From contig JAJZAV010000004.1 of assembly GCA_021799255.1 (NCBI GenBank), positions 1-40,130 of the forward strand: a stretch of DNA of 40,130 bases. Reading direction: 5' to 3'. Of this stretch, positions 12,024-30,103 are shown one piece after another. The DNA comes from Bacillota bacterium. GTDB taxonomy: Bacteria > Bacillota > Bacilli > Alicyclobacillales > Alicyclobacillaceae. The notes beneath the pieces were generated by a model that saw only the letters and a list, made by a program, of their open reading frames with translations, was not told the origin of the DNA and made no database searches. How positions within the stretch are numbered: position 1 is the stretch's first letter; each line of letters starts with the position of its first letter. A program made the translations under genes and the position numbers.

Positions 12024-13945
12024 AATCGGGAGGGAGGCCGGATAAGAACCCTGCTCCGCGACAGCGGCGAACACGCAAAAGCGCAAGTCGTTCGATGCAA
12101 GGGGGCGCGATGCGCGGTGGACCGCCCATGGGAATGCCTGTTCAAAAGGCCAAGGATTTTCGCGGGACCCTGTTTAGGCTTGCAGGGTATTTTAAACCCC
12201 AGTGGTTTCTCTTAATCGTCGTTTTCATCGCCGCAGTGCTCAGCACCATCTTTGGGATTATTAGCCCGAAGATCATGGGAAACGCGACGACTGATTTGTA
12301 CAAAGGGTACTTTTTGGCGAGAAGCGGGGTTCCGGGTGCCGGAGTCGACTTCCACGACATTCTTCGGATACTCGTCACGCTCGCCATCCTGTACGTCTTG
12401 AGCAGCATCTTCAGCTACGTTCAGCAATATCTGATGGCCGGGATTGCTCAGCGCACCGTCTATGCGCTTCGCAAAGAGGTCAATGCCAAATTGACGCGGT
12501 TACCTTTGTCGTTCTACGACTCCAGATCTCACGGGGACGTTCTGAGCCGGTTTGTGAATGACTTTGATAATATTTCGAATACGCTTCAGCAAAGCCTAAC
12601 GCAGTTCATCACATCAGCAGTCACTCTGGTTGGCGTCGTCGTCATGATGTTTTCGATTAATTGGCTGATGACGGTGGTCATCTTCCTGACTCTCCCGCTC
12701 AGCATGTTCATCATACGGGTCATCGCGAAGCGCAGCCAACGCTACTTTGCAGATCAGCAGAGAACGCTCGGAGAGCTAAACGGGCATGTGGAGGAGATGT
12801 TCACTGGACACCAAATCGTAAAGGCGTTTGGCCACGTGGACAAATCGATTGCGGAATTCGAAGAAATTAACGAGGAACTGTACAAGGCGGGTTGGAAGGC
12901 GCAGTTTGTATCCGGAATTATCATGCCTCTGATGAACTCCGTGGGGAACCTGGGATTCGTATTTGTCAGCGTTTTGGGCGGAATTCTTGTCATCCGAAAT
13001 ACGATTACCATAGGCAACGTGCAAGCGTTTATCTCCTATGCGAGGCAGTTTTCGCAACCCATCACGCAGTTGTCAAGCATTGCAAACATCATCCAGTCTA
13101 CCATGGCGTCGGCGGAGCGCGTGTTTGAATTGCTCGATGAGCGAGCGGAAGTTGAGACGGGACCCGACGAGCCGATTCTCGAACGGGCCATAGGCGACGT
13201 CGATTTCGAAGGTGTTGTGTTCGGATACAACGAGGAGTCCCCCGTCATTCAGGATCTCACCATTCACGCGAAGTCGGGACAGACCATCGCGATTGTCGGA
13301 CCGACGGGGGCGGGCAAGACGACCTTGGTCAACCTGCTCATGAGATTTTACGATGTGGACGGAGGCAAAATCCTTGTCGACGGAGTGGACATCGCGGCGA
13401 TGCAACGCCATCATTTGCGCAGTCTGTTCGGCATGGTCCTGCAAGACACTTGGCTGTTTCATGGAACGATTCGAGACAACATCGCCTACGGTCGCGCGAA
13501 TGCATCGCACGAAGAGGTGGTGGATGCCGCGAGAGCGGCTTACGCAGACCATTTCATTCGGACGCTGCCCGAGGGTTACGATACCGTACTAAACGAAGAC
13601 GGTTCTAACATATCGCAAGGCCAGCGACAACTCTTGACCATCGCTCGCGCGATACTGTCGAATCCCTCCATCCTCATCCTCGACGAGGCGACGAGCAGCG
13701 TCGACACTCGGACGGAGGCTAATATTCAACGCGCCATGGCGGATCTCATGCGGGGCAGAACGAGCTTTGTCATCGCGCATCGCCTTTCCACGATTCGGGA
13801 AGCGGATCTCATTTTGGTGATGAACCACGGCGAGGTCATCGAACAAGGTACCCATGAAGAGTTGCTCGCGAAAGAAGGATTTTACGCGGATCTATATAAT
13901 AGCCAATTTACAGGGAAAGCCGCGGCGGACACCGTTCTCATGTAA
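12020..13945 (+). CDS. Heterodimeric ABC exporter subunit 2 (TM-NBD fusion)
   Basis: ATG 12020 after GGAGGAGGAG; GPTGAGKTT, ISQGQRQLLTIARAI signature, ILILDEATSSVD; overlaps the subunit 1 stop. Confidence 0.88.
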   Translation: MKSGGRPDKNPAPRQRRTRKSASRSMQGGAMRGGPPMGMPVQKAKDFRGTLFRLAGYFKPQWFLLIVVFIAAVLSTIFGIISPKIMGNATTDLYKGYFLARSGVPGAGVDFHDILRILVTLAILYVLSSIFSYVQQYLMAGIAQRTVYALRKEVNAKLTRLPLSFYDSRSHGDVLSRFVNDFDNISNTLQQSLTQFITSAVTLVGVVVMMFSINWLMTVVIFLTLPLSMFIIRVIAKRSQRYFADQQRTLGELNGHVEEMFTGHQIVKAFGHVDKSIAEFEEINEELYKAGWKAQFVSGIIMPLMNSVGNLGFVFVSVLGGILVIRNTITIGNVQAFISYARQFSQPITQLSSIANIIQSTMASAERVFELLDERAEVETGPDEPILERAIGDVDFEGVVFGYNEESPVIQDLTIHAKSGQTIAIVGPTGAGKTTLVNLLMRFYDVDGGKILVDGVDIAAMQRHHLRSLFGMVLQDTWLFHGTIRDNIAYGRANASHEEVVDAARAAYADHFIRTLPEGYDTVLNEDGSNISQGQRQLLTIARAILSNPSILILDEATSSVDTRTEANIQRAMADLMRGRTSFVIAHRLSTIREADLILVMNHGEVIEQGTHEELLAKEGFYADLYNSQFTGKAAADTVLM

Positions 13946-25063: not shown

Positions 25064-25126
25064 CTATCCTAGAAGGAAGCCTATTCCTAAAGAAAAGCCG
25101 TGTCAATTTTAGAGGGGATTGGTTTC

Positions 25127-26038
25127 ATGCAGGCGATGCTGGCGACGGTGGAAGGCAAGCAAGTGAGGATTACCCATCCCGATAAGATGATGTGGCCGAA
25201 GTACGGGGTCACGAAGGCACATTACCTTGAGTATCTAGTAAAGATAGCCCCGTATCTCCTGCCCGCCTTGAAGCGGCGCATGTTGATGACGTGGTGCTAC
25301 CCACACGGAGCGGAAGAGGACGGATTTGCGCGCAGGTCGAGACCGTCGTCGGCTCCGGATTGGTTGGCGGGGATTCGGACGGGGGACTCCGTTCGAATGG
25401 TGGCCAACGACACGGCGACGCTGGTTTGGATGGGGAACCAGAGCTCGCTCGAGTTCCACGTTGAAGCAAATCTCGTTGGAACCTATTACCCCACGTACCT
25501 CGCCATGGACTTAGATCCCAGCCTCCCGGAAGCGTTTGACGACGTCGCGGAGATTGCTCTGCAATTGCGAGAGGTTCTGCGAGGACTCGGCCTCTTGTCC
25601 ATTCCAAAGACTTCGGGGAAAACCGGGTTGCATGTGTTCGTGCCCATCGTTGCCCGATACACTTATGAAGAAACCCGCGAGGTCAGTAAATTCATAGCGC
25701 GCTACATGGAGGAGCGCATGCCACTTCGAGTAACGCTTGAACGGCTGGTGGAGCGCCGCACAACGAAAGTGTACTTCGACTACTTACAGTTGTGGCGCGG
25801 GAAGACGATGGCGGCCGCATACTCGCCGCGCGCTGGTGCGGCACCAACGGTGTCAACCCCCCTCTCTTGGACGGAGATTGAGGAAGGCGTGCACCCGAGC
25901 GACTTCACCATTTTGAGCGTCCCGAGGCGAATTGAGTCCGTGGGGGATCTGTTTTTATCCGTCGTGAACCCAAGGGACACCGAAGCCCACTCGCTTGATG
26001 AAATCCTGATGTTTCTCAAGCATCACCGCCAAGTTTGA
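25127..26038 (+). CDS. ligD: NHEJ DNA polymerase, LigD primase/polymerase-type stand-alone protein
   Basis: ITHPDKMMWPKYGVTKAHYLEYL, YLAMDLDPSLPEAFDDV catalytic Asp motif, PKTSGKTGLHVFVPI, VYFDYLQLWRGKTMAAAYSPR. The track start is 25100; ATG 25127 is an alternative. Confidence 0.9.
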   Translation: MQAMLATVEGKQVRITHPDKMMWPKYGVTKAHYLEYLVKIAPYLLPALKRRMLMTWCYPHGAEEDGFARRSRPSSAPDWLAGIRTGDSVRMVANDTATLVWMGNQSSLEFHVEANLVGTYYPTYLAMDLDPSLPEAFDDVAEIALQLREVLRGLGLLSIPKTSGKTGLHVFVPIVARYTYEETREVSKFIARYMEERMPLRVTLERLVERRTTKVYFDYLQLWRGKTMAAAYSPRAGAAPTVSTPLSWTEIEEGVHPSDFTILSVPRRIESVGDLFLSVVNPRDTEAHSLDEILMFLKHHRQV

Positions 26039-26066
26039 TGCCATCAGGAGAAAAATGACATCCCTT

Positions 26067-26879
26067 TTACGAGGATTTTCTCTTCCCCTTCTTCGACGTC
26101 GGCGCCTTCTGCGACGAGGTCATCTCGAGACTCTTCTGCAGGGTTTGCATGAGATCCACGATGTTGTCTTTGTTCCCCGCGACGACCTTGGCTTCGCCCG
26201 ACTCCTGCGCCTTGTTTGAAATGATGCTGAGGAGAGTCTCGCGACGCTCGTCCCGGTACTTTTCCGGAGTGAAGGGGGTGGACAATTGGCGGACTAGCTG
26301 GGTTGCGACGGCAAGTTCGTTTTCGGCCACGGGCGCATCGGAGTTTGCGAACGGCAATTCTTCCACAGGTCTTACCTCATCGGGCCAGAACAAGGTTTCC
26401 ATGACGAGCATGCCGTTTGAGACGCGCAGACACGCCAACGTCTGCGCGCTGCGCAGGATGGTCTTCGCGATGGCAATTTTGTTGGTTTCCTCCATCGCCC
26501 GGGCGAGCAACCGATACGCACGCACGCTGGCGGACTCCGCGGACACGTAGTAGGTCCTGTCGAAGAAGACCGGATCGATATCCGACAGCTCGACGAAGTC
26601 CACGATGTCAATCGTGTCGGATCGGCGGTGGCTGACCGCTGCCAATTCGTCTTCGGACAAGATCACGAACTGGTTCGGCGCGTATTCGACGCCGCGGACA
26701 ATGTCGGCCGCAGGCACCTCCTCGTGGCACGTCGGGCACACCTTGTGGTACTCAATCGGCGTATTGCAGGCACGATGAAGATACCGGAATTTGACGTCTT
26801 TCGATTCGGTGGCGCTGTGCAAACGTATGGGCACGTTCACGAGACCGAAGCTGATGGACCCTTTCCACACCGTGTGCAT
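26067..26879 (-). CDS. ku: Ku protein (bacterial NHEJ)
   Basis: MHTVWKGSISFGLVNVPIRLHSATESKDVKFRYLH, typical Ku N-terminus; VEYAPNQFVILSEDELAAV. Confidence 0.95.
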   Translation of the reverse strand: MHTVWKGSISFGLVNVPIRLHSATESKDVKFRYLHRACNTPIEYHKVCPTCHEEVPAADIVRGVEYAPNQFVILSEDELAAVSHRRSDTIDIVDFVELSDIDPVFFDRTYYVSAESASVRAYRLLARAMEETNKIAIAKTILRSAQTLACLRVSNGMLVMETLFWPDEVRPVEELPFANSDAPVAENELAVATQLVRQLSTPFTPEKYRDERRETLLSIISNKAQESGEAKVVAGNKDNIVDLMQTLQKSLEMTSSQKAPTSKKGKRKSS

Positions 26880-26982
26880 GGTTTTTCCTCATCTCCTAAG
26901 TATAGGAATTTCTATGACTGAGAAGGCGTCCGCCTTGTGAATTCTGGAAGCGAGACGTCTATAGTGTCGTTCTGAACGCGCG

Positions 26983-27006
26983 TTTCATGCAAACTTTCAT
27001 GCAAAC
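26983..27006. repeat. Perfect 12-bp tandem duplication
   Basis: TTTCATGCAAAC twice in tandem (26983-26994, 26995-27006); the second copy contains the ligase stop codon. Confidence 0.8.
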
Positions 27007-27965
27007 GGATGTTCATCCGGGGGGGCGTCGACCACCGCCTGTAGGGTTGGTTGGCGCAGGGAAGAGTCCTTTGCCCATTCGATGAATTGAACCTTCACGG
27101 CGATGCGGGGCTTCGTCCACACTACCTGGCGGGAGGGCGCGGGTGGTCTTTCGAAAGGGCACTTTTCGACACGATGCTCGTAGAGTGTGTGATGCAATTG
27201 CGCCCACTCGGTTCGAGCCAATTTCCCGGGCCCAACCGTGGCGACATAATACAGGTGTTCGTCTCGGTCCGGCAAACCTAGCAAAAGAGCGTTTGGCACG
27301 TCGCCCACGGCGGTGTAGCCCCCAACCACGGCGATGATGTCTCGGTAATTCTTGATCTTTCGCCAGTCACTGTGGCGCTCGCCACAGACGTAGGCCGAAT
27401 GGCCTAGCTTCACCACGATGCCTTCGAGTTGATGCCTCTTGACGACGTCGAACAAGGCTTCGCCGTCGGGATAATTCGGCACGGCTTGAACCGTGGGACT
27501 CGTGCGCAAAGAGGCAAAAAGGATGTCCATCCGTCTTTGGAAGGGCAATTCGGTCACTGATTTTCCATTGTAGAACAAGATGTCAAAGACCATGTACACG
27601 ATGGGAACTTCTTTCGCTCTGGTGGGCACTAGACCTTGTCGCCGGATCCCATCTCGGCGCATCACATCGTGAAACGATGGCTTGTTCTGCGCATCGAGGG
27701 CGATGACTTCTCCATCCAAAATGATGCTCTTTGCTTGGCAGTACTGCGCGGCATCGGCCAACTCCGGATAGTGCATGGTGCGAAGATGCTGCTTGCGGTT
27801 GAGGAGTGCGGTCTCGTGTCCGTCGTAGTAAGTAAGAATGCGGACTCCGTCCCACTTGACGGAGGCAGTCCACTCTTCGCCAACCGGAATTTGGAGGCTC
27901 TGAATCGGTTCCATGGGGAAAACGGGTCGCATGTCGGCCAAGCCGAACGTCACTGTGTGTGCCAT
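26997..27965 (-). CDS. ATP-dependent DNA ligase (LigD ligase-domain type, stand-alone)
   Basis: WTASVKWDGVRILTYYDG (KxDG), IILDGEVIALD, LEGIVVKLGHSAY, DWRKIKNY. MAHTVTFGLADMRPVFP start at 27965 preferred over the track start 28088, which lies inside the kinase gene. Confidence 0.9.
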   Translation of the reverse strand: MAHTVTFGLADMRPVFPMEPIQSLQIPVGEEWTASVKWDGVRILTYYDGHETALLNRKQHLRTMHYPELADAAQYCQAKSIILDGEVIALDAQNKPSFHDVMRRDGIRRQGLVPTRAKEVPIVYMVFDILFYNGKSVTELPFQRRMDILFASLRTSPTVQAVPNYPDGEALFDVVKRHQLEGIVVKLGHSAYVCGERHSDWRKIKNYRDIIAVVGGYTAVGDVPNALLLGLPDRDEHLYYVATVGPGKLARTEWAQLHHTLYEHRVEKCPFERPPAPSRQVVWTKPRIAVKVQFIEWAKDSSLRQPTLQAVVDAPPDEHPFA

Positions 27966-28002
27966 GCTTATACTTTGACCTGAACAGCGGGCCCGAATTC
28001 CG

Positions 28003-29781
28003 TTAAAGTGCGGAAGTTTCCACGAGTTGGATCTGTTGTGACGTTTCAAGAGGCAAACGAATTTCCACGGTGGTTCCCTGCACTCCATCGCTGGTTAGAC
28101 GAATGGTACCTCCATGGTCCGAGATGATCTTGAAGGAGACCACCATGCCAAGCCCGGTGCCGTCGCTTTTTGTCGTGAAAAACGGATCTCCTATCCGTTT
28201 GAGATTTTCCTCGTCAATGCCGCAGCCCTCGTCGGTGATCCTGACGATGACGCACTTTTCCTCAAGTTCGATGTCTATATCGACGAGGCCGCCATGGGGC
28301 ATCGATTCAATGGCGTTCTTGAGAACGTTCACAAACACTTGCTTTATGTGGTTTGCGTTGCAATAAACAGGTGGAATGTATTCGGTTGGAAGGATACGTA
28401 TTTCCACGTTGCAGAACTTGGCGTGTGGTTCCAACATGGCCACGGCATTGCCCACCAAGCTGACGATATCCTCGTTCATATACTGCCCGAACTGTGGCTT
28501 TGACCAGACTAGGAACTCGTTGATCACCGTCTCAATCTGATTGAACTCCGCCCATAAAATGGGCAGAAAGCGTGCGAGGTCCGCCGGATTCTTTGCAATG
28601 ATCTTGAGAAATCCCTTGACGGAAGTGAGCGGATTGCGAATCTCGTGAGCGACGCCCGCAGCCAGCTGTCCAACCACGGCAAGTCGATCAGATCTGCGCA
28701 GCATCTCGTCGACCTCAACGCGTTCGCTGAGATCCCTTGCGACCATTACGACGTGACGCACGTCCCCGTCTTCTCCCGTCACGGAACTCCCCTTGATTTC
28801 CGTCAGAATGGGCCTTCCGTCTTCATGGACAAAGCGCACGGGCAGGGTGAACTCGGCGTGATTATACAGGGCAGAATGGATTGCGGACTTTACCTGAGCG
28901 ACATCATCCTTGTGGATGACACCGTCGAGGGACTGGCCTTCGATGTGCTTTGGGCTTCGTCCAAGAAGCGTCAAGTGAGATGGAGAGGCGTATGTCACGT
29001 CTCGCTTTGGATCCACAATGGTGATCAGATCCCGCGTGTGATCGGTGATGATTTGCTGTTTGGAGGCGATGGTTTGGTACATCGTAGTCGCTTTGGCGTG
29101 CTGTCGCGTAAGATAGATGATGCTAAAGAGGATCAGGAATGAGTAGATGCAATCCAGGATGAGGTGCAACGGATCGTGATAAGGTTTGAGGATGGTGGTC
29201 AGCACGACGGCGCAAATAAACATGGGATAGATCATAAACTGCCACGAATTCAGGTAGGTTTGCATGCTTACCTTTTCCCCAACCGAGTCCCTCACGCCGA
29301 GCAGCATCAGTAGGTTGAGCGCATCGAAAATGAAAAGCAACAGAGCGGACATGAGCCATAGGGGAAGGTGGGGAAAGTTCTTTATCAGGGCGGCGTCGGC
29401 CAAGGCGCATACGTTATACATACCCATGGTGGAGAACAGCCGGAACCAGCTTATCTTCTGAGACTTAGAATGGGCGTGCCGGATATTCAAGATGAGGGTA
29501 TCGGCCCAAAGGGCGGCGAGGCTGGCGCCGATGCCGAAATAGAGGAGCAAGAAAATGAACCCCACGTTGCCCGTGCTGTACTCATTTCCGATGGCTTTGC
29601 CACGAGGCAATCGGATTGGGAAGAAACTGAGAATGAGCGAAAACAAGAACATGATTAAGAGTGGTGACCAAGGATGCAGCTGAAGCTTCTGCCACAATTC
29701 GACGAGGGAAGCGCATCCGATAAGGAAGAGGACGCTTGTATACCAATTCACATCGCTGCTTCGCTCCATCGCTCGACCCAT
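28003..29781 (-). CDS. Membrane-bound PAS sensor histidine kinase (N-terminal multi-TM domain, PAS, HisKA, HATPase)
   Basis: Hydrophobic N-terminus; ITDHTRDLITIVDPKRDVTYASPSHLTLLGRSP PAS; AAGVAHEIRNPLTSVKGFLKII H-box; GTGLGMVVSFKII. Confidence 0.9.
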   Translation of the reverse strand: MGRAMERSSDVNWYTSVLFLIGCASLVELWQKLQLHPWSPLLIMFLFSLILSFFPIRLPRGKAIGNEYSTGNVGFIFLLLYFGIGASLAALWADTLILNIRHAHSKSQKISWFRLFSTMGMYNVCALADAALIKNFPHLPLWLMSALLLFIFDALNLLMLLGVRDSVGEKVSMQTYLNSWQFMIYPMFICAVVLTTILKPYHDPLHLILDCIYSFLILFSIIYLTRQHAKATTMYQTIASKQQIITDHTRDLITIVDPKRDVTYASPSHLTLLGRSPKHIEGQSLDGVIHKDDVAQVKSAIHSALYNHAEFTLPVRFVHEDGRPILTEIKGSSVTGEDGDVRHVVMVARDLSERVEVDEMLRRSDRLAVVGQLAAGVAHEIRNPLTSVKGFLKIIAKNPADLARFLPILWAEFNQIETVINEFLVWSKPQFGQYMNEDIVSLVGNAVAMLEPHAKFCNVEIRILPTEYIPPVYCNANHIKQVFVNVLKNAIESMPHGGLVDIDIELEEKCVIVRITDEGCGIDEENLKRIGDPFFTTKSDGTGLGMVVSFKIISDHGGTIRLTSDGVQGTTVEIRLPLETSQQIQLVETSAL

Positions 29782-29848: not shown

Positions 29849-29926
29849 TTAATCGAGCCATGGCATGGTTTGTGTGGCCACTGGCAACATGCCTGCACCA
29901 GTCGTGAAGGAATTAGCCATCTTCAC
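29849..29926 (-). CDS. Unannotated 25-codon ORF downstream of the c-di-GMP riboswitch candidate
   Basis: Minus strand AAGGAGGTG-TTCTC-GTG; reads MKMANSFTTGAGMLPVATQTMPWLD then TAA. Not in the ORF track (below length cut-off). Confidence 0.6.
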   Translation of the reverse strand: MKMANSFTTGAGMLPVATQTMPWLD

Positions 29927-29941
29927 GAGAACACCTCCTTA

Positions 29942-30040
29942 GTAGCTGGCTGGCTTGATTCGCAACGCCACAGCGATCGAAGCCCCTATAGCTTTGCGTC
30001 TCACGGTTTCCCGTGGTTTGCCCCGCCTCCGATTGGTGCA
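29942..30040 (-). ncRNA. c-di-GMP-I (GEMM-I) riboswitch candidate
   Basis: Minus strand reads GGGCAAACCACGGGAAACCGTGAGACGCAAAGCTATAGGGGCTTCGATCGCTGTGGCGTTGCGAATCAAGCCAGCCAGCTAC, with the GEMM-I conserved GGGCAAACC, GAAA tetraloop hairpin (CACGG-GAAA-CCGTG), GACGCAAAGC and 3' GCCAGCCAGCTAC. Confidence 0.88.
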
Positions 30041-30074
30041 GAGGCCATAAGGAGAAGATCTAGGTGTGTTAGGG

Positions 30075-30103
30075 ATTATATACTAAATTGCAAGACAATT
30101 CAA
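30075..30103 (-). promoter_or_regulatory. Sigma-A promoter driving the riboswitch transcript
   Basis: Minus strand TTGAAT (30103-30098), 17-nt spacer, TATAAT (30080-30075). Confidence 0.75.

Follow-up and report, generated by a model that had tools for sequence, protein, structure and literature searches.

On the evidence below, we lean, if only slightly, towards the view that the 25-codon open reading frame (ORF) on the minus strand at positions 29849 to 29926 of the window, the whole stretch of 40,130 nucleotides analysed here, is a real gene. It would be a diverged member of a group of small peptides ending in PW, called here the PW peptides, with a role at the membrane or at a receptor, a level tuned by a riboswitch and a continued pairing with the neighbouring kinase. 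Gene order, conservation, purifying selection in the relatives and the aptamer were established by sequence comparison. The PW peptides apparently form a conserved and undescribed family, pheromone-like and encoded beside membrane sensors.

The minus strand of the window carries, in this order, a promoter-like element, an RF01051 aptamer, a Shine-Dalgarno (SD) sequence, the 25-codon ORF, a 12-bp hairpin and a PAS/HisKA/HATPase_c kinase, as an earlier sequence-only reading had described from promoter to hairpin. The sigma-A-type promoter candidate (TTGAAT-17-TATAAT, 30075-30103) matches 10 of 12 consensus positions, with 1 such element found against 0.3 expected in shuffled sequences. The c-di-GMP-I (GEMM-I) aptamer spans 29938-30032 and the SD sequence AAGGAGGTG lies at 29932-29940. 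The ORF, coding for MKMANSFTTGAGMLPVATQTMPWLD, has the position and the PW ending of the peptides from relatives; it runs from a GTG at 29926 to the TAA stop at 29851-29849, with an in-frame ATG at 29920 as a possible start, and the GGAGG is 7 nt from the GTG and 13 nt from the ATG. The SD, start and stop positions given before all agree with the sequence, and the SD stands just past the aptamer as had been said, but at a distance of 3 nt from the last pair of the Rfam model, which ends at 29944, instead of one. The perfect hairpin AAGAACTGGGGG-TT-CCCCCAGTTCTT noticed previously is present at 29829-29804 and begins 19 nt past the stop codon. It is terminator-like with a T-poor tail (CTAATTG), failed the intrinsic-terminator scan, and is similar in sequence to the hairpins following the peptides at three related loci (L067, L068 and L120; p<=0.004). 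The kinase (28003-29781, 592 aa, ATG at 29769 as alternative start), assigned by Pfam and by its orthologues in relatives, has an N-terminal multi-helix membrane domain followed by the PAS, HisKA and HATPase_c domains. DNA-repair ORFs are found 3' of it (region 25100-29781): an ATP-dependent DNA ligase at 26997-28088 on the minus strand, overlapping the end of the kinase, a Ku ORF at 26067-26879 on the same strand, and a LigD-type primase-polymerase at 25100-26038 on the plus strand, facing the other two. The riboswitch transcript could extend into this group of DNA-repair genes.

The aptamer, the sole Rfam match within the window, scored 51.9 bits (E=1.9e-7, gathering cut-off 35) over the full model, positions 1-87, and exhibited the core motifs GGCAAAC, a GAAA loop and GACGCAAAGC, so that the GEMM-I-like element of the sequence-only reading is a full-length RF01051 match. 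Its score is below those of the aptamers at L006 (70.3), L007 (69.2) and L199 (76.3). Compared with other c-di-GMP-I riboswitches it is ordinary, except that the first ORF behind it is a 25-codon peptide. The end of the aptamer is directly followed by the SD also at L067, L068 and L199, and aptamer end, SD and start fall within about 30 nt at four loci, the window included, which makes translation control of the peptide the natural reading. From the position of the SD it is plausible that the riboswitch regulates initiation of translation of the peptide, as previously suggested, and this part of the suggestion is strengthened by the four loci; the pairing that might carry it out is not. Located 5' of the aptamer, UCUCCUUA (30048-30055, minus strand) is a candidate anti-SD strand and pairs with UAAGGAGG both when the fold is free and when the aptamer is enforced, but tested against shuffled sequences this 8-bp pairing lacks significance (p=0.126). 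A conserved anti-SD was rejected, with p=0.13 in the window and merely weak counterparts in L067 and L068. The pairing of UCUCCUUA with the SD, from which a direction of the switch might be inferred, would fit an OFF switch, but it is non-significant and appears in the prediction whether or not the aptamer fold is imposed; the SD is paired in both cases, and no switch is visible from folding. Three more c-di-GMP-I aptamers were found in the host genome, a 3.67 Mb draft, on contigs C201, C280 and C75 (L001-L003), the one on C201 being followed by a stretch that resembles a hairpin and by a gene whose protein product has a signal-like start.

The same arrangement was found in relatives. In the genomes G023 and G013, an RF01051 aptamer is followed by an SD, a peptide gene (MKRNALMTAGVMVAIALATVVQCPWW and MRKNALVTAGVLVAVALATIVQSPWF, respectively), a hairpin, a gene for DUF5317 (PF17248) and the kinase. 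In G121, from another bacterial family, an aptamer of 76.3 bits precedes an SD, MKKASAFVTLAALTAMALATIINKPWF, a hairpin, DUF5317 and a receptor with an HD-GYP-like output. These three loci of two families thus share an ORF of 26-27 aa, a PW ending and a receptor with a common membrane domain, and the conservation of frame and SD behind orthologous riboswitches supports the proposal, made from the window alone, of an unannotated peptide gene standing first in a c-di-GMP-I riboswitch transcript. More generally, the ORF 5' of the full-length kinase orthologues of relatives codes for 26-31 aa and ends with PW plus one residue. A profile (HMM) of the peptide gave 11 strong matches in 41 genomes of the bacterial family, all 11 just 5' of DUF5317 and the kinase. 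Over 401 genomes of the class it gave three further matches, which precede a DUF5317-kinase fusion, a DUF5317 with an HD-GYP receptor, and a kinase without DUF5317. The fusion, in G070 (L198, contig C54), joins DUF5317 and the kinase sensor in one open frame of 861 aa. At a locus of G135 (L120/L196, MAG DeMMO6_24), the intact peptide MKNNAWKTLASFAALAIAILYGKPWL is followed by a hairpin and directly by the kinase, DUF5317 being absent there just as it is in the window. A single-protein kinase query of the species genomes gave no match and an alignment-based scan then gave L113 and L120; plasmid records yielded nothing useful. Eleven more genomes carry the peptide with no detected riboswitch, mostly with Spo0A-box-like sites, and no riboswitch was found at the seven peptide loci scanned in genus g5, even at a relaxed threshold.

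The peptides of the relatives are basic at their start and hydrophobic in their core, and they carry a C-terminal PW. The synonymous/non-synonymous comparison called for by the sequence-only reading was made on the coding sequences of relatives, and six pairs gave pN/pS ratios of 0.28, 0.21, 0.17, 0.24, 0.00 and 0.42, each of them rough because the sequences comprise only 26-30 codons. At the level of the alignments, the peptide genes of the relatives are real and under the purifying selection expected of coding sequence.

We compared then the copy of the window with this family. It shares with it the placement of SD and ORF 5' of a hairpin and a receptor, the C-terminal PW and the sensor domain of the receptor, and of the 16 start sites in the 40-kb window that have an SD before them and open 20-36 codons, only the two of this ORF, its GTG and its ATG, lead to a PW ending. 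Its fit to the family is better than that of all 3000 full shuffles (p<1/3000); when MK and PWLD are held fixed, the core gives p=0.10, and the score against the family HMM is 0.8 bits. The window peptide keeps MK...PW, with PW plus two residues (PWLD) against PW plus one in the homologues. Its best 12-residue hydropathy is 0.98, compared to 2.2-3.0 in the homologues, and no export signal was found in it, as it has no hydrophobic stretch whereas the relatives have one. It would therefore not be exportable in the way the peptides of the relatives might be, and since the hydrophobic core is missing, we count this ORF, at its orthologous position, as a diverged homologue and not as a full member. 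At the nucleotide level, the coding sequence resembles the relatives weakly (p=0.03-0.06) and the hairpin does so clearly (p<=0.004). DUF5317 is absent from the window operon, where the kinase directly follows the hairpin, and the only DUF5317 found in the host genome is on contig C48.

These losses leave a second reading, in which the peptide worked with an ancestral DUF5317 and has been decaying since the loss of this partner, the riboswitch and the hairpin now regulating the kinase only. The missing hydrophobic core and the window aptamer, weaker than those at L006, L007 and L199, speak for it. So do six other genomes, of genus g5, that have lost both DUF5317 and the peptide and have kept Spo0A-box-like sites, the hairpin and the kinase; this joint loss makes decay after loss of DUF5317 a real alternative, and the hairpin retained there may by itself act on the kinase. 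Upstream of the kinase at these six loci (L237-L242), the hairpin (e.g. GAAGAATCGGGGCTTCGTCCCGATTCTT) and the Spo0A-box-like sites persist without the peptide and DUF5317. Against decay, the SD, start, stop and PW ending of the window are intact, and L120 has an intact peptide although it has no DUF5317. The sensor domains argue in the same direction: with a model from which the window and genus g5 had been left out, the sensor domain of the window kinase scored 145 bits, in the range of peptide-bearing kinases (100-218 bits), unlike the kinases of the six peptide-less genomes at 50-58 bits, with one at -3.6 (perhaps in a wrong frame), a contrast that is suggestive and not proof since the g5 genomes are related to one another. 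As its sensor domain is conserved like those of peptide-bearing kinases, we favour, without certainty, a diverged copy that would still work in the window over a relic; decay appears to us possible but unlikely.

We found also a sister type of peptide of about 29 aa, with the body MSxKVKAxxxFGAxVLFSxAAQA followed by a variable tail, a strong SD and usually a hairpin. All 13 of the 13 complete loci examined in the bacterial family have it in front of DUF5317, as do two loci from outside the family; in more distant families it was seen at 0 of 9 DUF5317 loci. Its body carries a signal-peptidase-like AxA, after which come hypervariable tails of 6-15 residues (GFFWIS, GVGVKF, GFALRP, GLVVTP, ALIFGGG and others). 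Precursors of secreted peptides show this combination of a signal-like part that is conserved and an end that varies. The gene after DUF5317 at these loci encodes a membrane sensor with a GGDEF and/or HD-type output (GGDEF/HD-GYP receptors), a TGTCGAA-like site is often found before DUF5317, and an Rfam scan of these loci gave no aptamer. The host genome itself (G000) has, judging from its sequence, a second peptide-DUF5317-receptor module, on contig C48 at 12387-13078 (L065, L220), consisting of MNNKVKAAVVLGAMVLFAVAANAALIFGGG, DUF5317 and a membrane GGDEF-HD protein. With hhalign, the sensor domains of the kinases matched those of the DUF5317-linked GGDEF proteins with E=1.8e-5 and a probability of 78%, which makes a relationship between them likely rather than proven. 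An AlphaFold model of the sensor domain, predicted with three sequences as input, reached a pLDDT of 45, too poor for a fold search.

A third reading concerns the family as a whole: the peptides would be no pheromones and would stay in the membrane as small regulators that bind the receptor or DUF5317, like MgrB or KdpF-type small proteins. Their length of 25-31 aa, basic start, single hydrophobic stretch and nearly absent tail, with an invariant PW at the end and no tail variability, are consistent with this, and the DUF5317-kinase fusion in L198 suggests a membrane complex. The AxA and the hypervariable tails of the sister family have instead the pattern of secreted precursors, and the window peptide itself has no membrane-spanning stretch, so that we consider resident membrane regulators rather improbable.

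For the favoured reading, that of a signalling peptide, we propose the following mechanism. The peptide of the relatives, with its basic start and hydrophobic core, would enter or cross the membrane and would perhaps be cut down until a tail of some five residues is left, e.g. EYPWV, ETPWL or QSPWF; a pheromone role, like this export or processing and the binding to a receptor, is what we infer from the family pattern. Together with the membrane protein DUF5317, the peptide would set the activity of a receptor that acts through a histidine kinase (likely to feed Spo0A), an HD-GYP or, in the sister type, a GGDEF/HD-GYP. In a subset that includes the window, the c-di-GMP-I riboswitch in the 5' UTR would tune the level of peptide translation, and the hairpin would pass just part of the transcription on to the kinase. 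In the window, DUF5317 would have been lost and the peptide would have drifted, while still pairing with the kinase. Taken in its full extent this would be a signalling system of Bacilli not described before. It would consist of a tiny peptide, secreted or located in the membrane, of DUF5317 and of a receptor whose output can be exchanged (histidine kinase, HD-GYP, GGDEF/HD-GYP). The c-di-GMP riboswitch would set signal production and so join peptide signalling to c-di-GMP and sporulation in one loop, and the window version would dispense with DUF5317. We put forward this wider scheme tentatively, with somewhat more doubt than confidence. Among the roles suggested before for the peptide, signalling fits the relatives best and a toxic one finds no support.

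The sequence-only reading had also offered a leader peptide coupled to the kinase. In such a device only the act of translation would matter, and ribosome occupancy, controlled by the riboswitch, would decide how much transcription passes the hairpin into the kinase gene. The order of aptamer, SD, ORF, hairpin and kinase, the stop codon 19 nt ahead of the hairpin and the conservation of the hairpin even where the peptide is lost would all suit such a device. It is less supported because the relatives show constraint at the amino-acid level, with pN/pS mostly 0.2-0.4 and an invariant PW, and because DUF5317 usually lies between peptide and kinase; there is no regulatory codon run, the peptide co-occurs tightly with DUF5317 and the sensor domain, and we judge a leader quite improbable. 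That the ORF arose by chance behind a riboswitch that in fact controls the kinase is very improbable, for although it has merely 25 codons and its core similarity to the family is weak, its position, SD, length and PW ending recur at orthologous riboswitch loci of two families and it surpasses every full shuffle. The ORF as a fragment of DUF5317, whose N..xGGxMPV motif it resembles, was rejected once full-length orthologous peptides had turned up 5' of an intact DUF5317.

No Pfam or NCBIfam model matched the window peptide, in line with the earlier failure to recognise a family for it, and no peptide scanned matched NprX/Phr, AgrD or another catalogued family of NCBIfam above cut-off. The precursors of Phr/NprX type in Bacilli are alike in having a short ORF beside a presumed receptor, a hydrophobic export-signal-like body and a short C-terminal tail, and one sister peptide gave a very weak match to the NprX HMM (E=0.16). 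Their receptor is however a cytosolic RRNPP protein, whereas here a membrane sensor kinase or a c-di-GMP enzyme takes that place, with DUF5317 as partner, and the window copy differs further by having no hydrophobic body. The AgrD-AgrB-AgrC and ComX-ComQ-ComP systems share the operon order of peptide, membrane protein and multi-helix membrane histidine kinase, but no known peptide-processing enzyme shares the Pfam family of DUF5317, and no cyclisation motif, ComQ neighbour or adjacent response regulator was seen. By gene order and sequence, the PW peptides would work like the known peptide-receptor pairs, yet they fall in no catalogued family. In the open-access literature we found no paper mentioning DUF5317 and no description of such a peptide-DUF5317-receptor or riboswitch arrangement. 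If the proposal is true, DUF5317 gains a function, spore-forming Bacilli have a candidate ligand for a class of their membrane kinases and c-di-GMP enzymes, a second-messenger riboswitch is exemplified in the control of a signalling peptide, and simple, testable predictions follow for cultivable Alicyclobacillaceae.

A link to sporulation is suggested by several observations. Spo0A-box-like TGTCGAA sites, some with one mismatch, precede the peptide in g5, g14 and L120; no such site was found near the window promoter. Spo0A is encoded in the host genome. The kinase core matched the KinD model NF053867 with 182.9 bits, well below the cut-off of 775, this being the nearest among the sporulation kinases. 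By its kinase core, the Spo0A of the genome and the TGTCGAA-like sites of the relatives, the system resembles sporulation kinases of KinD type, from which the window kinase differs in its N-terminal membrane domain, and we infer that the kinase may feed Spo0A. In both g14 genomes, a T-box leader (L006:3896-4132 and L007:449-684) stands 3' of the kinase and precedes a gene resembling a phenylalanyl-tRNA synthetase subunit.
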